From positions 62,001 through 126,000 of the forward strand of contig NZ_JAJCTH010000008.1 of the NCBI RefSeq assembly GCF_020594515.1: DNA of 64,000 nt, given 5' to 3'. Source of the stretch: Rhodoferax sp. U2-2l. Lineage in GTDB: Bacteria; Pseudomonadota; Gammaproteobacteria; Burkholderiales; Burkholderiaceae_C. This document shows, one piece after another, positions 14,671 through 30,358 of the stretch. A program made the position numbers and the translations under genes. The notes under the pieces are model-generated. The model made no database searches, was not told the origin of the DNA, and saw only the letters and a program-made list of their open reading frames with translations. The first letter of the stretch is position 1. The number at the start of each line of letters is the position of its first letter.

Positions 14671-16470
14671 ATGATCAGACTCTCCGAACTCAAACTCCCC
14701 CTGTCCGCCTTGCCGGTGGTGACCCGCCGCGCCGCCGATGCCCCGGCAGAAACCGACGCCGACCGCGCACCCATCATCCACCCGTTTGAGGCCCTGACGC
14801 GAATGAGCGCCCAGGCGCTGGGTGTGGACCAGGCCGCCATCACCCATTTACACGTCTTCAAACGCAGTTTTGATGCGCGCAAGGCCGAGCTGCTGGCGGT
14901 GTTCATCGTCGACGTCACACTGAACGATCCGGCGCTGGAGGCCCGGTTGCTGGCCCAGTTCCAGGGCAACTCACACATCCAACCCACACCCGACATGGCT
15001 TACAAGCTGGTGGCCACCGTGCCCGCCAATCTGCCGCTGCGCCCGGTGGTGGTGGGTTTTGGCCCGTGTGGCATGTTTGCCGCGTTGGTGCTGGCGCAGA
15101 TGGGCTTCAAACCGATCGTGCTGGAACGCGGCCGCAAGGTGCGTGAACGCACCAAGGACACCTGGGGCCTGTGGCGCAAACACGTGCTCAACCCCGAGAG
15201 CAATGTGCAGTTTGGTGAAGGCGGCGCTGGCACGTTTTCGGACGGCAAGTTGTGGAGCCAGATCAAGGACCCGCGCCACCTGGGCCGCCAGGTGATGACC
15301 GAGTTTGTCAACTTTGGCGCGCCGCCCGAGATTCTGGTGGAGGCGCACCCACACATCGGCACATTCAAACTGGTCAAGGTGGTGGAGAACCTGCGTGAAC
15401 GCATCATCACGCTCGGTGGCGAGATTCGTTTTGAGCAACGTGTCATGGATGTGGAAGTCGACACGTCCAACGGCCAGCGCCAACTGCGTGGACTCACCGT
15501 GCTGGACCAGCCCAGCGGCCAAACTTACGACTTGCGCGCCGACCAGGTGATCCTGGCGCTGGGCCACAGCGCACGCGACACCTTTGCCATGTTGCATGGG
15601 CGCGGTGTGGCCACCCAGGCCAAACCGTTTTCGGTCGGCTTTCGGATTGAACACCCCCAAAGCCTGATCGACCGCGCCCTGTGGGGCCGCCACGCGGGCA
15701 ACCCGGTGCTGGGCGCCGCCGCCTACAAGCTGGTGCACCACGCGCAAAATGGCCGCGCCGTCTATAGCTTTTGCATGTGCCCAGGCGGCACCGTGGTAGC
15801 AGCCACCAGCGAACCAGGCCGCGTGGTGACCAACGGCATGAGCCAATACTCACGCGCCGAGCGCAACGCCAACGCCGGGCTGGTGGTCGGCATCGAACCC
15901 GTCGACTACCCACAGGACAGTGCCGCGTTTATTGAGGCTTTTGGGCCTGTGACCGGCGGACAATATGCGCAGGAAGCTCTTGAATTGAGAGCATTTGATC
16001 CGAAAGCCGTGCACCCGCTGGCAGGCATCAACCTGCAGCGCCAGCTCGAAGCCAATGCCTATGTGCTGGGCGGCAGTAACTACGAAGCGCCCGGCCAGTT
16101 GGTGGGTGACTTCATCCGGGGTGAAACATCGAGCCAGTTTGGCAGCGTGTTGCCCTCGTACAAACCGGGCGTCAAGCTCGGTGATTTGCACCCCGCCCTG
16201 CCCGACTACGCGATTGCCGCGCTGCGTGAGGCGCTGCCAGTGTTTGGCAAAAAGATCAAGGGCTTTGACCTGCCCGACGCGGTATTGACCGGGGTTGAGA
16301 CCCGCACCTCGTCCCCCTTGCGCATGCCGCGTGGGGATGATTTCCAGAGCATCAACACCACCGGTCTGTATCCGGGTGGTGAGGGTGCCGGTTACGCCGG
16401 GGGCATCCTGTCGGCGGCGGTGGATGGCATCAAGCTGGCTGAGGCTTTGGCGCGGCGGGTGGTTGGGTAG
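14671..16470 (+). CDS. NAD(P)/FAD-dependent oxidoreductase (COG2509 family)
   Basis: A 599-residue flavoprotein. After an N-terminal region of ~105 residues comes the FAD-binding motif VVVGFGPCGMFAALVLA, then ERG, and later VILALGHSARDTF and a C-terminal EGAGYAGGI, which complete the FAD domain of the uncharacterised COG2509 dehydrogenases. The substrate is unknown. The ATG at 14671 (MIRLSELKLPL) matches homologues in memory; an earlier ATG at 14647 adds 8 residues. Neither has a clear ribosome site. Confidence 0.85.
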   Translation: MIRLSELKLPLSALPVVTRRAADAPAETDADRAPIIHPFEALTRMSAQALGVDQAAITHLHVFKRSFDARKAELLAVFIVDVTLNDPALEARLLAQFQGNSHIQPTPDMAYKLVATVPANLPLRPVVVGFGPCGMFAALVLAQMGFKPIVLERGRKVRERTKDTWGLWRKHVLNPESNVQFGEGGAGTFSDGKLWSQIKDPRHLGRQVMTEFVNFGAPPEILVEAHPHIGTFKLVKVVENLRERIITLGGEIRFEQRVMDVEVDTSNGQRQLRGLTVLDQPSGQTYDLRADQVILALGHSARDTFAMLHGRGVATQAKPFSVGFRIEHPQSLIDRALWGRHAGNPVLGAAAYKLVHHAQNGRAVYSFCMCPGGTVVAATSEPGRVVTNGMSQYSRAERNANAGLVVGIEPVDYPQDSAAFIEAFGPVTGGQYAQEALELRAFDPKAVHPLAGINLQRQLEANAYVLGGSNYEAPGQLVGDFIRGETSSQFGSVLPSYKPGVKLGDLHPALPDYAIAALREALPVFGKKIKGFDLPDAVLTGVETRTSSPLRMPRGDDFQSINTTGLYPGGEGAGYAGGILSAAVDGIKLAEALARRVVG

Positions 16471-16473
16471 TTA

Positions 16474-16722
16474 TTGGTCGAATTGGCCTGTAGCCCTTAT
16501 TCTTCGAGGGCTTGTAGCTATCGTTTTTTGGGATTGCTTGGTGCGCGTGGCGCCAGGCGAGCAGCGGGGTAACCGTTCTCCGGCCCCCTCGCGGGAGACG
16601 GCTTCAGTTAGCCACTGGCCTGGGTGTCACGTCTGATGGTGATGCACCAACAGTCTCATCACGCGAATGGGTTCTGCGCCCGGTTACCCCACCACTCGCC
16701 TTCAATGGTTTGGGATGCGCTG
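16474..16722 (+). repeat. Long direct repeat, copy 1, flanking hipBA
   Basis: It has two parts. 16474-16523 is a small palindrome (AGCCCT...AGGGCT, then T-rich) of a kind scattered in related genomes, which may terminate the flavoprotein gene. 16544-16722 is a ~179-bp block whose ends are inverted: AGGCGAG near the left end and CTCGCC near the right, each next to GGGGTAACCG or CGGTTACCCC. Copy 2 at 18636-18890 has the same parts in the same order. No protein-coding role is evident. Confidence 0.85.
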
Positions 16723-16781
16723 TTGGGGTCAGATATTTGGGCTCTCGGTTCGCGCTTTGACACAGCTTTTTTTGTGGAAAA

Positions 16782-16917: not shown

Positions 16918-17229
16918 ATGCTGTTACCCGTGACGACAGTTGCTGAGCTTGGCATGCTCTTGCGCGCCACGCGCAAGTCCCAGGGTGTGCGTCTGGACGA
17001 TGCGGCGGGCGCCGCTGGTGTTGGCCCGGTGTTTGCCGGTGAGTTCGAACGTGGCAAAGAAAGTGTGCAGTTCGATTTGGCGCTCAAACTTTTGCAGGAG
17101 CTGGGTTTGCGGCTCCAAGTGGATGTGCCGGACTCGGCCCTGCCCCTGTTCAAGCAGCTGCAGGAAACTGGCCTGAGGCCGCTGCCCAAAAGAACCTCCC
17201 GTAAACCAGCCAAGGATGCCGCATCATGA
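16918..17229 (+). CDS. hipB: HipB-type antitoxin and transcriptional repressor
   Basis: A 103-residue XRE-family HTH protein: LGMLLRATRKSQGVRLDDAA, then AGVGPVFAGEFERGKESVQF as the recognition region, then a basic tail (KRTSRKPAK). It should neutralise the HipA kinase and repress the operon. AGGAGG lies 7 bases before the ATG. It overlaps hipA by 4 bp (ATGA), so translation is coupled. Confidence 0.9.
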   Translation: MLLPVTTVAELGMLLRATRKSQGVRLDDAAGAAGVGPVFAGEFERGKESVQFDLALKLLQELGLRLQVDVPDSALPLFKQLQETGLRPLPKRTSRKPAKDAAS

Positions 17230-18554
17230 CCAGCACGGCAGCGCGGATGCTGAATGTCTTCGTGAATGAGCGCCTGGTCGGGCAGCTTCGCGCGGCAGAT
17301 GACATCTGGTCCTTTGAATACGCGACCAGCTGGCAACAAGACCCGGAGGCGTTCAGCCTGGCGCCCGGTTTGCCCAAGGAAACCACCCTGCACACCGACG
17401 GCTCATCGATGCGGCGCGTGCAATGGTATTTTGACAACCTGCTGCCGGAAGAACTCTTGCGAGATGTGCTGGCCAAGGAGGCCAACATCGACACCTCCGA
17501 CGCATTCGGCCTGCTCCAGCACTTTGGTGCAGAGTCTGCGGGCTCGCTGGTGCTGCTGGCGCCGGGGGCCGAGTCTACCGAAAAGGGTCGCAAGCCACTG
17601 ACCCGTGCCGAGCTACAAAAACGTATAGCCAACCTACCGCATGCCAGCTTAAGCAGCGATGCCCCCAAGCGCATGTCGCTGGCCGGTGCCCAGCACAAAA
17701 TGGTGGTGATCAAGGCGGGCAACGAGCTGTACGAGCCTTTGGCGGGCACGCCGTCCACCCACATCCTCAAGCCAAACGCGCTGTCGCCAGACTACCCCTC
17801 GTCGGTGATCAACGAGTTTTTTACCATGCGCTTGGCCCGTGCCGTGGGGCTGGAGGTACCTGATGTTGACCGCTTCTACACACCGGCGCCGGTGTACCTG
17901 GTGGCGCGGTTTGACCGCACAAGCAGCCCGAACGTGCAGCGGCTCCACATCATTGACAGCTGCCAGTTGCTCGACAAATCCCGCGCCTTCAAGTACCAGC
18001 AAGCCAACCTGCAAACCCTGGGTGAAACCATCCGGCAATGCCGCGCCAAGACCGTCGCCCGGGTGCAGCTGTATCGCTGGCTGCTGTTTAACGTGATCGT
18101 TGGCAACGGTGACAACCACCTCAAGAACATCTCGTTCAGAGTGAGCAGCGCAGGCAGCGAACTCGCCCCTTTTTACGACCTGCTCAGCACCGCAGTCTAC
18201 GCCACGCCAACCTATGCCCACCAAAACGCCACCTGGCCCCGGGTGGAGATGGCGGTGTCCATTGAAGGCGCTCACCATTTCAACGACATCACCCGCGACA
18301 AGTTGCTCCAGGCCGGAGAGGCTTTGGGACTGGCGCCAGCCACAGCCGCCCGCGAACTCAGCACCATGGAACGCGACCTGCCCAAAAAGGCTGACCTGCT
18401 TTTTGACGAGATCACCCAAACCTTTGAATCACTCATTCAAGAGAGCCCATCACCAGACGCCGTGCGGCAAGTTCAAGGTGGAGAGTTGATGCTGCTGCGG
18501 GCGATCCGAAAAATCGTCATGCATGACATGCTGGAGCGCATTCAAAAGCGTTGA
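17226..18554 (+). CDS. hipA: HipA-type serine/threonine kinase toxin
   Basis: A 442-residue HipA. The N-terminal subdomain begins LNVFVNERLVGQL. The Gly-rich loop KRMSLAGAQHK has Ser151, matching the autophosphorylated Ser150 of E. coli HipA. The catalytic Asp296 and Asn298 lie in VGNGDNHLKN and the metal Asp318 in FYDLLST, so all key residues are present and the enzyme should be active. E. coli HipA phosphorylates glutamyl-tRNA synthetase and induces persistence; the target here is inferred. The pair lies between two long direct repeats. Confidence 0.93.
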   Translation: MTSTAARMLNVFVNERLVGQLRAADDIWSFEYATSWQQDPEAFSLAPGLPKETTLHTDGSSMRRVQWYFDNLLPEELLRDVLAKEANIDTSDAFGLLQHFGAESAGSLVLLAPGAESTEKGRKPLTRAELQKRIANLPHASLSSDAPKRMSLAGAQHKMVVIKAGNELYEPLAGTPSTHILKPNALSPDYPSSVINEFFTMRLARAVGLEVPDVDRFYTPAPVYLVARFDRTSSPNVQRLHIIDSCQLLDKSRAFKYQQANLQTLGETIRQCRAKTVARVQLYRWLLFNVIVGNGDNHLKNISFRVSSAGSELAPFYDLLSTAVYATPTYAHQNATWPRVEMAVSIEGAHHFNDITRDKLLQAGEALGLAPATAARELSTMERDLPKKADLLFDEITQTFESLIQESPSPDAVRQVQGGELMLLRAIRKIVMHDMLERIQKR

Positions 18555-18635
18555 ACTCGCCAACCTTGCCTGACCAGTTGCTTCTTCACGATGAGAACTG
18601 GCGTGGCGCTGATATGGCAATTGGTCGGATGGTTT

Positions 18636-18890
18636 TTGGTCAAATTAGCCTGAAGCCCTTGTTTATCAAAGGCTTGTAGCTATCAACTATGTAGTTCTTG
18701 ATGGACTTGGTTCGCGTGGCGCCAGGCGAGCGGCGGGGTAACCGTTCTCCGGCCCCCTCGCGGGAAACGGCTTGGGCTAACCGCTTGCCTGGGTGTTGCG
18801 TCTGAAGGTGGTGCGCTACCTGTCTCATCACGCGAATGGGTTCTGCGCCCGGTTACCCCACCACTCGCCTTCAACGGTTTGGATACGCTG
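18636..18890 (+). repeat. Long direct repeat, copy 2, flanking hipBA
   Basis: The second copy of the repeat at 16474-16722. The first part (18636-18685) has an imperfect hairpin AAGCCCTT/AAAGGCTT and could terminate hipA; the palindromic block is 18713-18890. Same orientation and spacing of parts as copy 1. The 18555-18979 gap holds nothing else I can recognise. Confidence 0.85.
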
Positions 18891-18979
18891 TCAAGGAAAG
18901 CAGGTCCGATTGAACCCCAGAGCTGCCAGTCAAATCTCCTGGCAACCGGGATCCAATCTGCTGGATTTGGATATAACGG

Positions 18980-19534: not shown

Positions 19535-20005
19535 TCATTGCTGATAGATTGAGCCTCTGGATGCGAACTCCAACAAAACTACTTGCTGATCTGCTAGAAC
19601 AGGTTCATACACAAGTCGGTATTCTCCGATGCGATATCGCCACAGGCCTTTGAATTCGCCCGTGAGTGGCTTCTTTGTGTCTCCTTGTGCAGTGAGAGGA
19701 TCCTGTGATAGGTTGGATATAACTTCCAGAATGCGTCCTTGAAGCTTCTTGTCGATGTCCGCAACAGACTTTCGAAAGTCTGAAGTGAAGGCGATCGACC
19801 ATGCCATAGGTCGAGGTCGTGCTCTAGAAAATCGAATTCCAGAATCAAACTCATCATCAGACTCCTCAAGCGTGCTTTCTGGCTGAGGTTCATGACGAGA
19901 CCATAGTTCACGCAACTCAGCAAGGTACTCGTACTCATATGCGAATACCTCAAGGGCAACTGTTTGGTCTCGAAATAGCCGCATGATTGTGCGTCCTATG
20001 CTCAT
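19535..20005 (-). CDS. RelE/ParE-superfamily toxin with acidic N-terminal extension
   Basis: Residues ~70-156 match RelE-type toxins: IAFTSDFRKSVADIDKKLQ, then LTGEFKGLWRYRIGEYRLVY and a final LEFASRGSIYQ. The first ~70 residues are an added segment with an acidic patch (STLEESDDEFDSG), and there is no separate antitoxin gene beside it. The protein should be an mRNA interferase or gyrase poison if active; the extension could be a fused inhibitor. The ATG at 20005 directly follows a GTTAGGC core (20014-20020), as in an integron cassette. Confidence 0.75.
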   Translation of the reverse strand: MSIGRTIMRLFRDQTVALEVFAYEYEYLAELRELWSRHEPQPESTLEESDDEFDSGIRFSRARPRPMAWSIAFTSDFRKSVADIDKKLQGRILEVISNLSQDPLTAQGDTKKPLTGEFKGLWRYRIGEYRLVYEPVLADQQVVLLEFASRGSIYQQ

Positions 20006-20876: not shown

Positions 20877-21619
20877 CGCTGCATCAGTGCAAACACGCCC
20901 CAGCCCAGATAGTCACGTGTGTTGGTGGCGTAACGCGTGGGCTCGGCGTTCAGCTGGGCGCGCACCTCGGGCGCGAATTCGTCGCCCGGGTTGGCCTCCA
21001 GCCAGCGGCGCATGGTGAGCCATTTGGCGGCCTCGTAGCGGTCCCAGCCGTCCTGGTCGGCCAGCACCATTTCCACCACGTCGTAACCCAGCTGGCCAAA
21101 AGATGCCACCAGTGCTGGCAGCGTGAGGAAGTCGCTGATGGCGTGGGCCAGGCAGCCTTTGGCCACCTCTTCTGTCGGCGGCAACTGGCGCCAGAACGGC
21201 TCACCAATCAGGATGATCCCGCCGGGGCGCAGGCTCTGCGTCAGCAGCGCGATGGTGCCGGCAACGCCGCCAGCGATCCAGGTGGCACCCACACAGGCGG
21301 CCACATCCACCTTCTGCTCAGAGACAAAACCCGCTGCATCGCCGTGGATGAACTTGACCTGGTGGGCCACGCCGAGTTCTTCGGCGCGATGTTGGGCTTG
21401 CTCGGTGAACAGCTGGCTCATGTCGACGCCGGTGCCGGTGACACCGTGGTCGCGCGCCCAGGTGCACAACATCTCGCCCGAGCCGCTGCCCAGGTCCAGC
21501 ACACTGGCCCCGGGGGCCAGCCGCAATGCCGCGCCCAGGCTGGCAAGTTTGTCGGCGGTGATCGGGTTGTGGATGCGGTGTGCGCTCTCAGTGATGGTGA
21601 AGATCCGAGGGATGTCCAT
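20873..21619 (-). CDS. Class I SAM-dependent methyltransferase
   Basis: A 248-residue methyltransferase. VLDLGSGSGEMLCTWA is the SAM motif I, GTGVDMS is the acidic loop, and FIHGDAAGF is motif II. The substrate is not evident; the general form resembles small-molecule methyltransferases. It is first in a two-gene unit with DUF523. Confidence 0.85.
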   Translation of the reverse strand: MDIPRIFTITESAHRIHNPITADKLASLGAALRLAPGASVLDLGSGSGEMLCTWARDHGVTGTGVDMSQLFTEQAQHRAEELGVAHQVKFIHGDAAGFVSEQKVDVAACVGATWIAGGVAGTIALLTQSLRPGGIILIGEPFWRQLPPTEEVAKGCLAHAISDFLTLPALVASFGQLGYDVVEMVLADQDGWDRYEAAKWLTMRRWLEANPGDEFAPEVRAQLNAEPTRYATNTRDYLGWGVFALMQR

Positions 21620-21812
21620 GGTGGAGAGATTCCTGAGGGGTGTGAGGCGATGTGGCGACGGCCTGTGTGATGTTGCCGTTTACATAACGATGTACACCCT
21701 CGTTGCAGCCCACGCTCGATTGACTAAAACCTCTATAAGAAGCTCAATTATCGACCGGCGGCAACAGCCCCCACGGCAATGGCGCGCACGGCATCTCCGC
21801 CTGAACTGCAAA

Positions 21813-21847
21813 GTCCGAAGTCAGGCAGCGTTGCCAGCACTTCGGAC
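21813..21847. terminator. Compound hairpin downstream of the cytosine-deaminase-like gene
   Basis: An outer 9-bp perfect stem GTCCGAAGT/ACTTCGGAC encloses an inner GGCA/TGCC hairpin. It starts 28 bp after the stop of the minus-strand gene at 21875. There is no T-run, so it may be a transcript-stabilising end rather than a simple terminator. Confidence 0.45.
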
Positions 21848-21874
21848 CGCTCTCCAGTCACGCGATGGCGATGA

Positions 21875-23245
21875 TCAGATGTTCCAGACCGATGCTTTTC
21901 CGCGGCGCAATACCGCGTCCACCGGGTTGCGACGGGCGACCAACTCGGCTGAGCACGATGCTGCGACGAATGTCAGGTCAGCGTTATCGCCCACCTTTGG
22001 CCAGACCACTTTGCCCTGGTCGTCCAGCGGCGCCACGCCGCGTGTGATGTACTTCAGCGCGCGGTTCAGGCTGTACTCGTCGTCCCAGCCATTGATCTCG
22101 CCCAGGCGGCTGGCACGTTCGATCATGCTGCCGCTGCCGTAAGCCGACCAGTGGTCATTGATGCAATCGGTGGCCAGGTGCAGCATGATGCCCTTGCTGG
22201 CGAGTTCTTTGACGGGCGGGGCCGGCGTATCGATGGGCGCGGTCGAAATGACTTGCATTTTCACAGCCGCCATGCGACTGAGCACCTCATCGAGGATCGG
22301 GTTGCCCTTCAGTTGCCCCAGGCAATAGGCATGGCTGACGGTGACCCGACCTTGCCAGCCGGCGTCTTCGGTCAGTTTGGCCAGGCGCGAGATCACAGAG
22401 GCGCCTTGGGCACCCGGTTCATGCAGGTGCATGTCGATCGGGGCGTTGTGTTTGACCGCCAGTTCCATGGTCGTGTTCAGCGAGCGCTCGACATCGCCGT
22501 CGATGGAGGTGGGATCGAGGCCACCGACGATGTTGAAGCCATTGCGCATGGCCTCGTCCATCAATTTGACGTGCTTGAGCAATCCATGCTGCGGGAAAGC
22601 CACCATGTCAAAGTCAATCTTGTCTCGATACGCGGTCAGCGCCTCCAGGACCTTGTCCTTGTTGCGCAAACCCTGCACCGGGTCGACGTTGCACTGGACA
22701 CGCATGTGGGTGGTACCAAAACTGGTACTGAGGTCAATCAGCGCCTTGGCCTTCTTGGGGGTGTCGGCCAGAAATGGCACCAGAAAACCCTCCTCCTCCT
22801 TGATGCGTTGTGCGACGCTGACAAACGGCACGGCGGCCTTCCATGGCCCGCCGTAATGGCCTTTGTCCAGATGGATGTGCATGTCGGCAAATGAGGGAAG
22901 TGCCAGACTCTGCTTCATGTCGTACTGGGGCAAGCCGTCAGCGGGTCGTGATTCAGCGATGGACATGATCTTGCCGTTTTCAATCAGCAAATGGGCCTTT
23001 CGTGTCTTGGTTGACAACACCTGGTTCTCGGCGCCCCGCTCAAAGCCATCTTCCAGTGTCACGTTGGTCAGCCAGAAGCGCGCTTCCTTGGGCTTGGCGC
23101 TGCCGCTGGCAGGCTGACGGGCTGGGTTCTGGCCCGCCTGTGCAGTCGCCGAAGCGAGGGTTAGCGCGCCCACGGCGGCGCTTGCTCCGGCCTGCATGAT
23201 GCGGCGGCGGTTGACGTTCATTTCAATGCTGTTGAAGTGTTGCAT
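21875..23245 (-). CDS. Exported amidohydrolase, cytosine deaminase-like
   Basis: A 456-residue metal-dependent amidohydrolase. Metal ligands are seen in DMHIHLDKGH, IDMHLHEPG, VSHAYCLG and TDCINDHWSAYG, the CodA-type set. The N terminus NRRRIMQAG plus a hydrophobic stretch ending ATAQA looks like a Tat signal, so the enzyme is probably periplasmic, unlike cytoplasmic E. coli CodA. AAGGAAA precedes the ATG at 23245. It is downstream of a cytosine permease gene, and both share a homologous upstream leader. The exact substrate (cytosine or another base) is inferred. Confidence 0.85.
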   Translation of the reverse strand: MQHFNSIEMNVNRRRIMQAGASAAVGALTLASATAQAGQNPARQPASGSAKPKEARFWLTNVTLEDGFERGAENQVLSTKTRKAHLLIENGKIMSIAESRPADGLPQYDMKQSLALPSFADMHIHLDKGHYGGPWKAAVPFVSVAQRIKEEEGFLVPFLADTPKKAKALIDLSTSFGTTHMRVQCNVDPVQGLRNKDKVLEALTAYRDKIDFDMVAFPQHGLLKHVKLMDEAMRNGFNIVGGLDPTSIDGDVERSLNTTMELAVKHNAPIDMHLHEPGAQGASVISRLAKLTEDAGWQGRVTVSHAYCLGQLKGNPILDEVLSRMAAVKMQVISTAPIDTPAPPVKELASKGIMLHLATDCINDHWSAYGSGSMIERASRLGEINGWDDEYSLNRALKYITRGVAPLDDQGKVVWPKVGDNADLTFVAASCSAELVARRNPVDAVLRRGKASVWNI

Positions 23246-23312
23246 TTAGCGTTTCCTTTTGGTTTGAACCAGTGTGCTGTTCGAAAGACCCATGGATGCC
23301 ACAAACGTCGTC

Positions 23313-23480
23313 CCTGCCGTTTCGACACCATCAGCGGCCCGGCTAGTTGGGCACCGATCATGAAAAAACGTCATCGATTCCGTTTGTGCAGAAATTCTCC
23401 AACCGAGGTACCGAAAGAAACTGCGTCAAGATCAAGCCATCACACCTTCTCAACAATGCCGCTGTGATTGTTCGAATAGG
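23313..23480 (-). promoter_or_regulatory. Conserved leader upstream of the cytosine-deaminase-like gene (copy A)
   Basis: This ~168-bp segment is homologous to 25119-25285, which sits in the matching place before the permease gene. Shared blocks (plus strand) include CCTGCCGT, ATCAGCGG, GTGCAGAAATT, GCGTCAAG, CTTCTCA and TGATTGTT, in the same order with small gaps. It could be a duplicated promoter/operator region, a structured 5' leader, or the remnant of a short plus-strand ORF. Confidence 0.6.
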
Positions 23481-23528
23481 TGTCGCAATCCCGGGTTTTC
23501 CAAAGGCCACGCAGATCTTGTTGGCAAC

Positions 23529-23556
23529 AACGTCCGCCAAAGCGGACGTTTTAATT
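23529..23556 (+). terminator. Strong hairpin with T-run, plus orientation
   Basis: A 9-bp perfect stem AACGTCCGC/GCGGACGTT with loop CAAA, followed by TTAATT on the plus strand. It points against both flanking genes, so either it ends an unseen plus-strand transcript or works bidirectionally after codB. Confidence 0.6.
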
Positions 23557-23744
23557 CAGCACTTGGCGATTGAAAGAGGGTGACGTGAAGAAACCAAAAC
23601 CCCGTGGGCAGCGCGCGACGGGGTGGATACTGGATGGGTGGCGATGGACGACCCGGCGAGCTGACGAGCCTGAGGCGTGCAAGCGGCAGGGCCCATGCGT
23701 GCACGGCTGCGCCACGCCACGCCCGTCAAGGCGCTACCTGCCAG

Positions 23745-25064
23745 CTACTCACCTTGTCTAAGCATGGATGCCGTGGCGGTGACAGGCTTGACAAACAAAC
23801 TGCCCACAAAAAAGAAGATGGCGGAAGAAACAATGCCACAGGCAACAACTGAGAGTTCAGGGGCATAAAAATTGACCACCAGGGCAACGGTCGATGCCAA
23901 GCCCCAGGCACCAAAGGCCAGCGGCCGCCAGGTCACGGCACCCTGCGCATGGTTGGCTAACTTCTTGTGCAGAACCAGCCGATCCATGATGATGATGGTG
24001 GCTATGGGCGGAACAATCAAGCCCAGCAGATTGAGCCAGTCCTGAAAAGCGTTCCAAATGCCAGTCATGGCAACCAGGACACCAATAGAACCCAAAATCA
24101 GGGTGAGCGACCGCATTTTTCCACCCGTCATGTGGGACCAGCCCACTGCGCCGTTGTACAGGCAGTGGGTGCAGCCCACGCCCAGATTGATAAAAACAAA
24201 AATCACAGCCAGGATGGAAAGCAGCGTGCCTTGTCCCGACAGGATCGAAATGAAGTCACCACCATTGAGTTCAGGAGACAGCACAACGCCGGTTGCGACA
24301 ATCACGGCACCAATCATTTCCGCCATGAATTTGGCGAACGGAAAAGCGGTGAACGCTGCCAAAAAGCCTTCACGACCATTGCGCGCCCAGCGCGTAAAGT
24401 CTCCGGTCATCGTGCCAGAGTCGGAAAAGGTGGCAAACACCAAAGTCACCGCCGCGCCAAACGACATGGCCCCCGCCGTTGCAATAGGCTGGTAATTGAA
24501 GATGTCGGCATTGCCGGTCTTCAGTGCGATCACGACCGACACACCGCCCAAAATAACGTACAAAGGTGCGGCGATCCAGCCCAAAATAGCCAGTGCCTTG
24601 ATGCCGATGAAGGTGGCGCCGATGTAGAGGACGCCGCCCAGCAGCGTCATCAACAGCAGGTTGGCACCAAACGCACGAAACATCGTGTCGCCGGTGAGAC
24701 CCACCATGAGGGCAAACCAGCCGATGACCACCGTGGAAAGCAAGCCCGAAACAACGTAATAGCCAAATCGCCCAAAGGTCTTTTGGGCGGTAATGGCAAA
24801 GTTTTCTCCAGTCTTGCCCGCCAGGTAGCTCAAGGCGCCGACGATGACGCAAAGCATCATGTTGCCCGTCAGGATGGCTGCCGCGCCCACTTTGAATCCA
24901 AGCAAGGCGGTCACGATGCCGCCGATGACCGCGCTGGTCAGAACCATGGGAAAGCTGTACCAGACAGCCGCCACCGAAGCAAATGGTTTTCGATGCGCCA
25001 GTGGCACCGGGGTGTGCTCGAATTCCGGATCCAGCAACGAGCTCTCTACGTTTTGACCTGACAT
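23745..25064 (-). CDS. codB: Cytosine/purine permease, NCS1 family
   Basis: A 439-residue polytopic protein with about 12 hydrophobic segments, starting after a ~30-residue soluble N terminus. LTSAVIGGIVTALLGFKVG, VFATFSDSGTMTGDFTRWAR and HCLYNGAVGWSH fit the CodB branch of nucleobase:cation symporters. It imports cytosine or a similar base across the inner membrane. AAGGAAGG lies just before the ATG. The deaminase-like gene follows on the same strand. Confidence 0.88.
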   Translation of the reverse strand: MSGQNVESSLLDPEFEHTPVPLAHRKPFASVAAVWYSFPMVLTSAVIGGIVTALLGFKVGAAAILTGNMMLCVIVGALSYLAGKTGENFAITAQKTFGRFGYYVVSGLLSTVVIGWFALMVGLTGDTMFRAFGANLLLMTLLGGVLYIGATFIGIKALAILGWIAAPLYVILGGVSVVIALKTGNADIFNYQPIATAGAMSFGAAVTLVFATFSDSGTMTGDFTRWARNGREGFLAAFTAFPFAKFMAEMIGAVIVATGVVLSPELNGGDFISILSGQGTLLSILAVIFVFINLGVGCTHCLYNGAVGWSHMTGGKMRSLTLILGSIGVLVAMTGIWNAFQDWLNLLGLIVPPIATIIIMDRLVLHKKLANHAQGAVTWRPLAFGAWGLASTVALVVNFYAPELSVVACGIVSSAIFFFVGSLFVKPVTATASMLRQGE

Positions 25065-25118
25065 ATCTGACCTTCCTTTTAAAAAATGCTTGTTCCCATG
25101 ACCGCGCCTGTGGCCCTA

Positions 25119-25285
25119 CCTGCCGTCTCGAAAAAAATCAGCGGGCCGGCTGTTTGTGCGCTGAACATTCGAAATGTGTCGTCGCTTCAATTGGTGCAGA
25201 AATTGTCCAAGCGTGGTCAAAAAGGCAAGAGCGCAGGCGTCAAGCGCAAGTCACTTCTCATCAATGCGGTCTTGATTGTTGAAAA
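25119..25285 (-). promoter_or_regulatory. Conserved leader upstream of codB (copy B)
   Basis: Homologous to 23313-23480 over nearly its whole length and placed about the same distance (~55-70 bp) from the downstream start codon. On the minus strand both contain a conserved GTGCAGAAATT complement and a CTTGACGC block. Confidence 0.6.
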
Positions 25286-25529
25286 ATGCATCACCCACTC
25301 TGGCTGGCACCATGGCGCGAAACCATCAGAAAAAGCCAACCGTGGACGAGCCACTTCGTGGCCTGCAGATGCGATGGTCGGTGAAGAGATTTGCCCCGCT
25401 TTTGAGAGCGCAGCGCTGGGTGAGGAGACGGCGTTGACCCGATCGGCCACGCTGTAAACCATGAACTTTGGCGGCGCCAAAATCGTCGATCTGGCTGGCT
25501 TTGTGCGCGAACCGGCCGTCGTTTTGGGA

Positions 25530-25549
25530 TGAATCTGGGTCCAGATTCA
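25530..25549. promoter_or_regulatory. Tight palindrome upstream of the DMT exporter gene
   Basis: TGAATCTGG and its complement CCAGATTCA are separated by 2 bases. A 9-bp-arm palindrome with such a short gap is more like a protein-binding operator than a hairpin. It lies 145 bp before the exporter start; the binder is unknown. Confidence 0.35.
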
Positions 25550-25694
25550 CACCAGCATGTCGGGGACAATCGCGCCTCACGTCTTAAATGGCCCGCGCTA
25601 ACGTGCCTGAAGGGGTGAGCAGGACAACGCGCATACCGCCACAACATGCGCCCGCTCGATCTTCGTTCCCGTCCATTCTTTTGCCATTTCGCCG

Positions 25695-26582
25695 ATGCAA
25701 CTCAACCGAAAACAACTCGTACTCCTGGCTTTGCTGACCCTGGTTTGGGGATTCAACTGGCCAGTGATGAAGTTGGGCGTGACGGACTTCCCGCCACTGA
25801 CCTTTCGCAGTCTTTGTCTGTGGCTGGGGCTGCCGGTGGTGGTGGCGGTGATGGTGACGCGCAAGTTGCCATTCAAGGTGTCACGGCAAGACTACCGCGA
25901 GGTGTTCTGGCTCGCCATGACCAATCTGGTGATCTGGAACGTGCTCATTATTTTGGCTATCAAGTACCTCAGCAGCGGGCGCTCGGCCATTTTGGGGTAC
26001 ACCATGCCGATCTTCTCGGCGCTGCTGGGCGCCTGGTTTTTCGGCACACGGCTGCGGCTGCGCAATTGGATCGGCGTGGCGGCGGCAGCGCTGGGCGTCG
26101 GGCTGCTGCTGTGGAACGAAATGGCCAACCTGTCGGGCCAGCCGCTGGCGGTGTTGGGCGCGCTGGCGGCGGCGGCCACCTGGGCTTACGGCACGCAGCT
26201 CATGCGCAATACCCGATTGGTCGTGCCGACCCTCACGCTGGCGTTTTGGATGATGTTGATCACGGCGCTGACGATGACGGTGCTTTGTGTGGCGCTGGAA
26301 TATCCGCAGTGGCAGATGCCGTCGGGGCGGACTTGGTTTGCCATTGCTTACAACGCGGTGCTGGTGTTTGGCTTTGCGCAGGCGGTCTGGCTGACGCTGG
26401 CGCGCACGCTACCGCCGATTGCCTCGACGCTGAGTGTGATGATGATTCCCATCCTGGGTGTTTTCTCGGGCGCACTGGGGCTGGGCGAACAACTGCACTG
26501 GCAAGACTGGACGGCCGTCGGGTTGATGGTGGTGTCCATGGTCTCAGTGCTGGCGCCCAGCCGTGCGATGGCCAAAGCCTGA
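25695..26582 (+). CDS. EamA/DMT-family transporter
   Basis: A 295-residue inner-membrane protein with ten predicted helices in two EamA repeats, beginning LVLLALLTLVWGFNWPVMKLG (first repeat) and later AAAATWAYGTQLMRNT (second repeat). EamA exporters move amino acids or other small metabolites; the substrate cannot be read from sequence. It is divergent from codB. Confidence 0.87.
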   Translation: MQLNRKQLVLLALLTLVWGFNWPVMKLGVTDFPPLTFRSLCLWLGLPVVVAVMVTRKLPFKVSRQDYREVFWLAMTNLVIWNVLIILAIKYLSSGRSAILGYTMPIFSALLGAWFFGTRLRLRNWIGVAAAALGVGLLLWNEMANLSGQPLAVLGALAAAATWAYGTQLMRNTRLVVPTLTLAFWMMLITALTMTVLCVALEYPQWQMPSGRTWFAIAYNAVLVFGFAQAVWLTLARTLPPIASTLSVMMIPILGVFSGALGLGEQLHWQDWTAVGLMVVSMVSVLAPSRAMAKA

Positions 26583-26815
26583 TGGCATTTTGATGTCATG
26601 GCGAGCACGGCATGACGATCTAGCGACCCTGCCGTCGACAAGTGGCGTGCTTGAGCCTTGGTCAGCAGGGCATGGTGTGGTGTAGCCGGGGCGTTTTTAT
26701 GAGGGGCCACCAATCGCGCCACCGTCGAAGGCTAGCGGGAGCGGCTGGCGCAGTACCTGCCGTGTTGGTCCACAGCGAGGATACGACGCCAGGCCACCCA
26801 AGGCCGTGGCGACAC

Positions 26816-27835
26816 TTACTTGCCCGCGCGAATCTTCTTCAACTCAGCCTGGGTTTCGTTCCACAGGTCCATGCCGATGTCGGCGCCGATGCTGGCGTAC
26901 ACCTTGGTCAGCTTGTCGCGCATGCGGGCGGATTCGGCGGGAGACAGCTCATTGATCTCCATGCCCTTGGCTTTGAGGTCGCCCATGGCTTTGGCGGCTT
27001 CGGCGCGGGTGTCTTTGCGCTCAAAGTCGCGGCTGGTCGTGGCAGCGTCCATCAGCACCTTTTGCTCGTCTTTGGAGAGTTGGTCCCACCATTTTTTGCT
27101 GACCGTCACGATCCACGGGCTGTAGACGTGGTTGGTCACCGTCATGTACTTCTGCACTTCGTAGAACTTGCTCGACAGGATGGTGTTGAACGGATTTTCC
27201 TGGCCGTCCACGGTTTTGGTTTCCAGCGCGGTGAACAACTCTGAGAACGCCAGCGGGATCGCGTTGGCACCCAGCGTCTGGAAGCTGTTCAAAAACACGT
27301 TGTTCTGCATCACACGCAGCTTGATGCCCTGCATGTCTTCCATCTTGGTGATGGCGCGTTTGCTGTTGGTCAGGTTACGGAAGCCGTTTTCCCAATAGAC
27401 CAGACCCACCAGGCCTTTTTCCTGCAGTTTGTTGCGCACCTTGTCGCCAATCGGGCCGTCGAGCAGGGTGTCGGCTTCTTTCACGTTGCTGATCAAGAAC
27501 GGCGTGTCCCACAGCGCCATTTCCTTGGTGATGCCCACCAGGGTGGCAGTCGACCCGACCATCATCTCTTGCGCGCCACCAATCAGCGCCTGTTGCATCT
27601 GGTTGTCAGGCCCCAAGGCGGCGGCGCCAATGGCGCGCACCTTCATCTTGCCACCCGAGAGTTTGGCCACCTCGTCGGCAAACACCTTGGCGGCGCGGCC
27701 CTGGTTGCTTTGTTCGTTGAGGCCGTAACCAAAACGGATCAGGCGCGGTTTGATGTCTTGCGCTGCAGCCGCAAACGAGGCACTGAGCAAGGCCACGCTG
27801 GCGGCGGCGATGAGGGTTCTGCGAAGAAATGTCAT
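26816..27835 (-). CDS. dctP: TRAP transporter substrate-binding protein DctP
   Basis: A 339-residue periplasmic binding protein with a Sec signal (LIAAASVALLSASFAAAAQ). RFGYGLNEQSNQGRAAKVFA and the substrate-contact region FRNLTNSKRAI with Arg fit the DctP family of organic-acid binders. It is last in the gntK-dctQ-dctM-dctP operon, 42 bp after dctM. Context points to gluconate or a related sugar acid. Confidence 0.92.
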   Translation of the reverse strand: MTFLRRTLIAAASVALLSASFAAAAQDIKPRLIRFGYGLNEQSNQGRAAKVFADEVAKLSGGKMKVRAIGAAALGPDNQMQQALIGGAQEMMVGSTATLVGITKEMALWDTPFLISNVKEADTLLDGPIGDKVRNKLQEKGLVGLVYWENGFRNLTNSKRAITKMEDMQGIKLRVMQNNVFLNSFQTLGANAIPLAFSELFTALETKTVDGQENPFNTILSSKFYEVQKYMTVTNHVYSPWIVTVSKKWWDQLSKDEQKVLMDAATTSRDFERKDTRAEAAKAMGDLKAKGMEINELSPAESARMRDKLTKVYASIGADIGMDLWNETQAELKKIRAGK

Positions 27836-30187: not shown

Positions 30188-30195
30188 ATTGGTTT

Positions 30196-30209
30196 GGATA
30201 GCGCTATCC
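30196..30209. promoter_or_regulatory. Palindromic operator, gntK side
   Basis: The perfect 14-bp palindrome GGATAGCGCTATCC ends 9 bp upstream of the gntK ATG. An identical site lies 111 bp away by the regulator gene. The central CG and symmetric form fit a LacI-family operator. Confidence 0.85.
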
Positions 30210-30306
30210 CATTGACATCAATAAAAAGTCATGTCAAGCACCGCAGGCCATGGGAACCGCTACAGCAGCCGGTCACAATGACGGTTTGAACTTGACGATG
30301 ACACTT

Positions 30307-30320
30307 GGATAGCGCTATCC
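30307..30320. promoter_or_regulatory. Palindromic operator, regulator side
   Basis: The second identical GGATAGCGCTATCC. It overlaps a likely promoter of the regulator: TTGACG at 30293-30298, then 18 bp, then TATCCT whose first bases are the operator end. Repression would be by steric block, possibly with DNA looping between the two sites. Confidence 0.85.
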
Positions 30321-30358
30321 TACACCCATCAAACTGACCGCGTATAGGTACAAACCCT

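Follow-up and report, generated by a model that had tools for sequence, protein, structure and literature searches.

Duplicated promoter or regulatory regions occur upstream of functionally linked bacterial genes, and direct repeats bracket some horizontally inserted genes. Here we describe a pair of homologous segments in Rhodoferax sp. U2-2l that recalls both of these classes. The segments lie within the 64,000-nucleotide stretch of DNA analyzed here (the window), each upstream of a minus-strand gene, and we found no account of this arrangement in the literature. The principal features are as follows.

21679..26800 (boundaries approximate), no strand assigned: strain-specific segment of ~5.1 kb carrying the amidohydrolase gene, segment A, the permease gene, segment B, and a gene for an EamA-type exporter
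21875..23245, minus strand: amidohydrolase of the NF005312 subfamily, AtzC/cytosine-deaminase-like (PF07969; PDB 6nbo, E 9e-52)
23313..23480, minus strand: segment A, upstream of the amidohydrolase gene and homologous to segment B
23745..25064, minus strand: NCS1-type nucleobase permease, cytosine-permease-like (PF02133; PDB 7qoa, E 4e-31)
25119..25285, minus strand: segment B, upstream of the permease gene and homologous to segment A

Segments A and B are homologous and confined to one locus pair

When segment B was searched against the whole genome (4.23 Mb in 51 contigs), it matched segment A at ~71% identity over 160-164 bp with an E value of 1.6e-9, and every match other than B itself and A had an E value above 0.1. 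The local alignment of A with B scored 84, compared with 19.8 +/- 2.3 (maximum 31) for 500 dinucleotide-preserving shuffles. An earlier note on this DNA had proposed homology between these two intervals, and both values place it far beyond chance; the blocks named there, GTGCAGAAATT, GCGTCAAG, CTTCTCA, and TGATTGTT, stand in identical order in the two copies. A genome-wide search for a pattern of the best conserved distal block, allowing up to 3 mismatches, returned A and B as its sole two matches. Taken together, the shuffle test, the genome search, and the pattern search show that the similarity is real and local, confined in this genome to one pair of loci. A 30-bp match on contig C22 (E 0.125) was dismissed as chance.

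When the 64-kb window was compared with itself, the A/B pair was one of just two repeats of at least 60 bp with an E value below 1e-6. The other is a direct repeat of 83% identity (16460-16723 and 18622-18891) that brackets a HipA-like open reading frame (17226-18554, named by eye). Three relatives (G004, G074, and G055) match the flanks and are without most of the HipA stretch between, and a fourth (G045) matches most of it. Near the HipA-like frame is a minus-strand open reading frame (19535-20005) whose C-terminal half resembles, by eye, a RelE/ParE-type toxin.

The permease and amidohydrolase genes

The two genes had been described as encoding a cytosine permease and a cytosine-deaminase-like enzyme, and both names proved too narrow. 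PF02133 places the permease among NCS1 transporters, but its score against PRK11017, 176 bits, falls under the curated cytosine-permease cut-off of 326. Similarly, the likeness of the amidohydrolase to cytosine deaminase holds only at the superfamily level. At closer range, it passes only the cut-off for NF005312, a generic amidohydrolase subfamily (464 bits, cut-off 447), and among solved proteins the nearest to it is N-isopropylammelide isopropylaminohydrolase, with cytosine deaminase ranking behind. Judged by eye, its N terminus, NRRRIMQAGASAAVGALTLASATAQA, is of the twin-arginine (Tat) type, suggesting that the enzyme is probably exported. We infer that the permease and the amidohydrolase may act on one compound.

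Position and orientation of the segments

Segment A ends 67 bp before the amidohydrolase start codon (23313 to 23245), and segment B ends 54 bp before the permease start codon (25119 to 25064), both on the minus strand, in agreement with the similar spacing reported earlier. Each gene is thus preceded by a segment in matching orientation and at nearly the same distance, as would be the case for a shared promoter or operator. The ribosome-binding sequence AAAAGGAA precedes both genes. The intervals between segment and start codon are weakly similar to each other (P 0.15), and further upstream, beyond the segments, leftover similarity is at shuffle level (score 21). The segments had been called leaders. 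Given the minus-strand orientation of the two genes, any RNA leader would carry the sequence complementary to the strand then quoted.

The gap between the permease and amidohydrolase genes measures 499 bp and contains the following feature.

23529..23550, no strand assigned: inverted repeat with a 9-bp stem and a 4-base loop, in the interval between the permease stop codon and segment A; forms a hairpin in the predicted fold of 23313-23560

This repeat has a short T run on its plus side only and was not listed by a terminator scan; it is a plausible candidate for a transcription boundary. The 499-bp gap and the strong inverted repeat suggest that the two genes form separate transcription units, each needing its own promoter. 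On the far side of segment B, the ~400 bp leading to the EamA gene (25286-25694) may be decayed DNA; six-frame protein family scans of this interval and of both spacers gave zero matches.

The locus lies in a strain-specific island

In three close relatives (loci L049 in G004, L050 in G074, and L051 in G045), the sequences that flank the locus, up to 21678 and from 26793-26820, lie ~280-470 bp apart, which identifies 21679-26800 as strain specific. A fourth relative (L052 in G055) carries ~10.6 kb of unrelated DNA at the same site, indicating that the site is variable. The ~5.1-kb segment appears to have been acquired laterally. No regulator gene was seen within it.

In BLAST-based DNA searches, which copies below roughly 65-70% identity would escape, no segment copy appeared in 147 relatives or among 388 genomes sampled across the order (one genome per species), and plasmids, phages, and E. 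coli genomes searched in this way gave no relevant match. A sequence-only profile of both copies, which reaches somewhat further than BLAST but was run with strict filters, yielded some weak matches when run over 129 relatives (E 0.006-0.1), most of them within open reading frames of at least 120 codons. These were not accepted as homologues: in a set of that many genomes, chance alone would produce scores of this order.

The genes themselves are similarly restricted. A close counterpart of the permease is absent from the genomes of 298 relatives, and the amidohydrolase found only its own genome, both in the 298 relatives (E<=1e-80) and in a set of 400 genomes from the family (E<=1e-75). Viral contigs held no relatives of either protein. 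A scan of 84,980 species genomes, which detects close relatives only, placed the nearest permeases (57-76% identical) in Bacillus ndiopicus, Providencia, Vibrio, and a Firmicutes MAG. The segment is missing beside the six nearest permease relatives, all in other genera and within this range of identity. The expectation that the segment would be conserved upstream of orthologous genes was therefore not borne out: these six lack it, and the relatives of the strain hold no close orthologue of either gene.

Tests for a structured leader RNA

The earlier note had suggested that the segments might form a structured leader RNA. As a riboswitch or attenuator present in both transcripts and sensing a nucleobase-like ligand, such an RNA would act in cis, so no regulator gene would be needed in the island. 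Two predicted hairpins in matching positions speak for it.

23442..23483, minus strand: inverted repeat forming an imperfect hairpin, distal end of segment A, core CAAT-N9-ATTG; predicted, z -1.78 on the minus strand and -2.75 on the plus strand
25252..25288, minus strand: counterpart of this imperfect hairpin, distal end of segment B, with the same CAAT-N9-ATTG core; predicted, z -1.18 on the minus strand

Each is modestly stable in its predicted fold, and the outer stem has changed in sequence with its pairing retained. As a conserved element, however, the CAAT-N9-ATTG hairpin is no better than chance (P 0.49), and a T-run terminator common to A and B is absent. Folding of the full upstream regions as single sequences on the minus strand was shuffle-like (z -0.60 and -0.83). 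RNAalifold consensus energies were obtained for three ranges (whole upstream region, segment alone, and distal half) and set against column shuffles in which gap and match classes were preserved; on either strand they were no better than those of the shuffles (z -0.23 to +1.85), in a comparison of two sequences that is low in power and fails to support a structure. An Rfam search of 21000-27000 with cmscan at E<=5 returned three implausible matches, all outside the segments. On this evidence, a ligand-sensing leader is very unlikely.

Tests for a small gene

The other proposal, that the segments are two copies of the remnants of a small protein-coding gene on the plus or the minus strand, draws on the open plus-strand frame of 123 codons in segment B and on the plus frame that can be aligned around SS..VQK.S.RG. 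This frame is not favored over the others, as the translated A/B alignments in the three plus frames score alike (62, 65, and 64). Its pN of 0.33 is near its pS of 0.40 (pN/pS ~0.8), its mismatches fall 10/9/16 by codon position, and in copy A it is broken by one stop and by a change of frame. Among the minus frames, the best one (score 73, pN 0.25, pS 0.50) is interrupted twice by stops in copy B. Compared with column shuffles, the highest translated score was unexceptional (P=0.87), the frames of A and B matched no Pfam or other protein family, and in a protein search of 148 relatives the plus-strand frame found only itself. A decayed small gene is accordingly improbable. With no support from either the fold or the coding tests and the segment missing beside the relatives' permease genes, the two proposals have been largely answered in the negative.

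Promoter and operator signals

Since neither frame nor fold is favored, function at the DNA level remains. Scans for simple sigma-70 consensus sequences, which miss many real promoters, gave no convincing promoter pair at aligned positions of A and B. A shared operator had also been suggested, and the position, orientation, and spacing of the segments are compatible with one; the signals expected of it are not evident, as the one inverted repeat that A and B share has arms of 4 bp (P=0.49), no operator-like or inverted repeat is conserved between them beyond chance, and the island holds no regulator. A sigma-54 pattern in TTGGACAATTTCTGC was rejected by eye, its GG-to-GC spacing being one base too short. 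Elsewhere in the window (30194-30332), the palindromic sequence TTGGATAGCGCTATCC occurs in two copies 111 bp apart and resembles paired operator sites.

Matching positions in the A/B alignment are clustered by a runs test (58 runs against 73.6 expected, P 0.004), but when neutral divergence was simulated and the copies realigned, P ranged from 0.02 to 0.11 according to the indel rate. Clustering of conserved blocks is therefore weak. The segments had been described as old and maintained. They are old in the sense of diverged and no more, as differences between the copies may predate their arrival side by side; maintenance does not follow from weak clustering, and with two copies selective conservation is inseparable from slow decay.

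A passive repeat or a duplicated promoter region

The main and close rival of a shared promoter is that the segments are a passive relic, either a direct repeat left by insertion of the permease gene beside the amidohydrolase gene or an old segmental duplication, decaying without function, with the similar distances to the start codons incidental. The repeat brackets exactly the permease gene, itself without a close counterpart in relatives, and the window's second strong repeat also encloses inserted DNA, the stretch with the HipA-like gene, which gives this explanation added weight. Furthermore, the longest run of matches between A and B, 11 positions, is expected by chance (P 0.49), and signals of fold, frame, and operator are all absent. 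A relic accounts less readily for two copies placed at nearly equal distances, in the same orientation, from unrelated genes, or for clustering slightly in excess of the neutral simulations, and neither a transposase remnant nor terminal inverted repeats were seen. We consider it a substantial possibility, though not the probable one.

As no other genome searched carries the segments and neither an RNA nor a small gene is apparent, we regard an ordinary duplicated promoter region as the likeliest explanation. Specifically, the two genes of an uptake/hydrolysis pair, probably gained by lateral transfer, would form separate transcription units, each served by a copy of a duplicated promoter and 5' region. 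We give this reading roughly even prospects. One ancestral upstream region, comprising a promoter and untranslated leader and possibly a transcription factor site, would have given rise to the diverged copies A and B. These would drive two minus-strand units, one for the NCS1 nucleobase-type permease and the other for the probably exported amidohydrolase, so that the duplication would have placed an uptake gene and a hydrolysis gene under shared control. The duplication may have arrived with the ~5-kb segment, itself apparently acquired laterally, or happened inside it.

In favor of a duplicated promoter region are the common strand, the near-equal distances to the start codons, the presence of AAAAGGAA at both genes, the restriction of the segments to these two genes alone in the genome, and clustering somewhat above neutral simulation. 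Against it are the lack of an aligned sigma-70 promoter, of an operator-like repeat, and of an island regulator, the permease relatives in other genera that are without the segment, and a total of two copies. What is observed is that A and B are homologous, occur nowhere else in the genome, agree in orientation and spacing, and lie in an island that close relatives are without; lateral acquisition, promoter function, and coregulation are inferred. An undescribed cis-acting control element, whether an operator array or a leader RNA, that travels with the transporter/amidohydrolase pair and places it under one signal in a new host has a slighter chance still than the leader RNA or the small gene.

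If the segments are functional, the acquired genes would have gained common control through a copied upstream region instead of an operon; if they are not, they would be the footprint of a permease insertion. Either way, this is a local case of two copies in one genome.

Comparison with known systems

Like the nucleobase-responsive riboswitches (purine, xanthine, and others in Rfam), segment B lies upstream of a nucleobase-type transporter gene, but unlike them A and B have neither an Rfam match nor conserved-fold support. The resemblance to direct repeats that bracket inserted genes is closer, given that the permease gene is bracketed and that a second bracketing repeat (16460-16723 and 18622-18891) lies in the same window. 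In contrast to such repeats, A and B, at 71% identity, have diverged well beyond what a fresh insertion duplication would show, and the two are found inside the segment that relatives are without. Compared with described duplicated promoter regions, the present case comes from one genome, in which the scans recognized no common promoter or operator and no regulator was seen; as in those systems, two nonhomologous genes have homologous DNA upstream, alike in orientation and in spacing.
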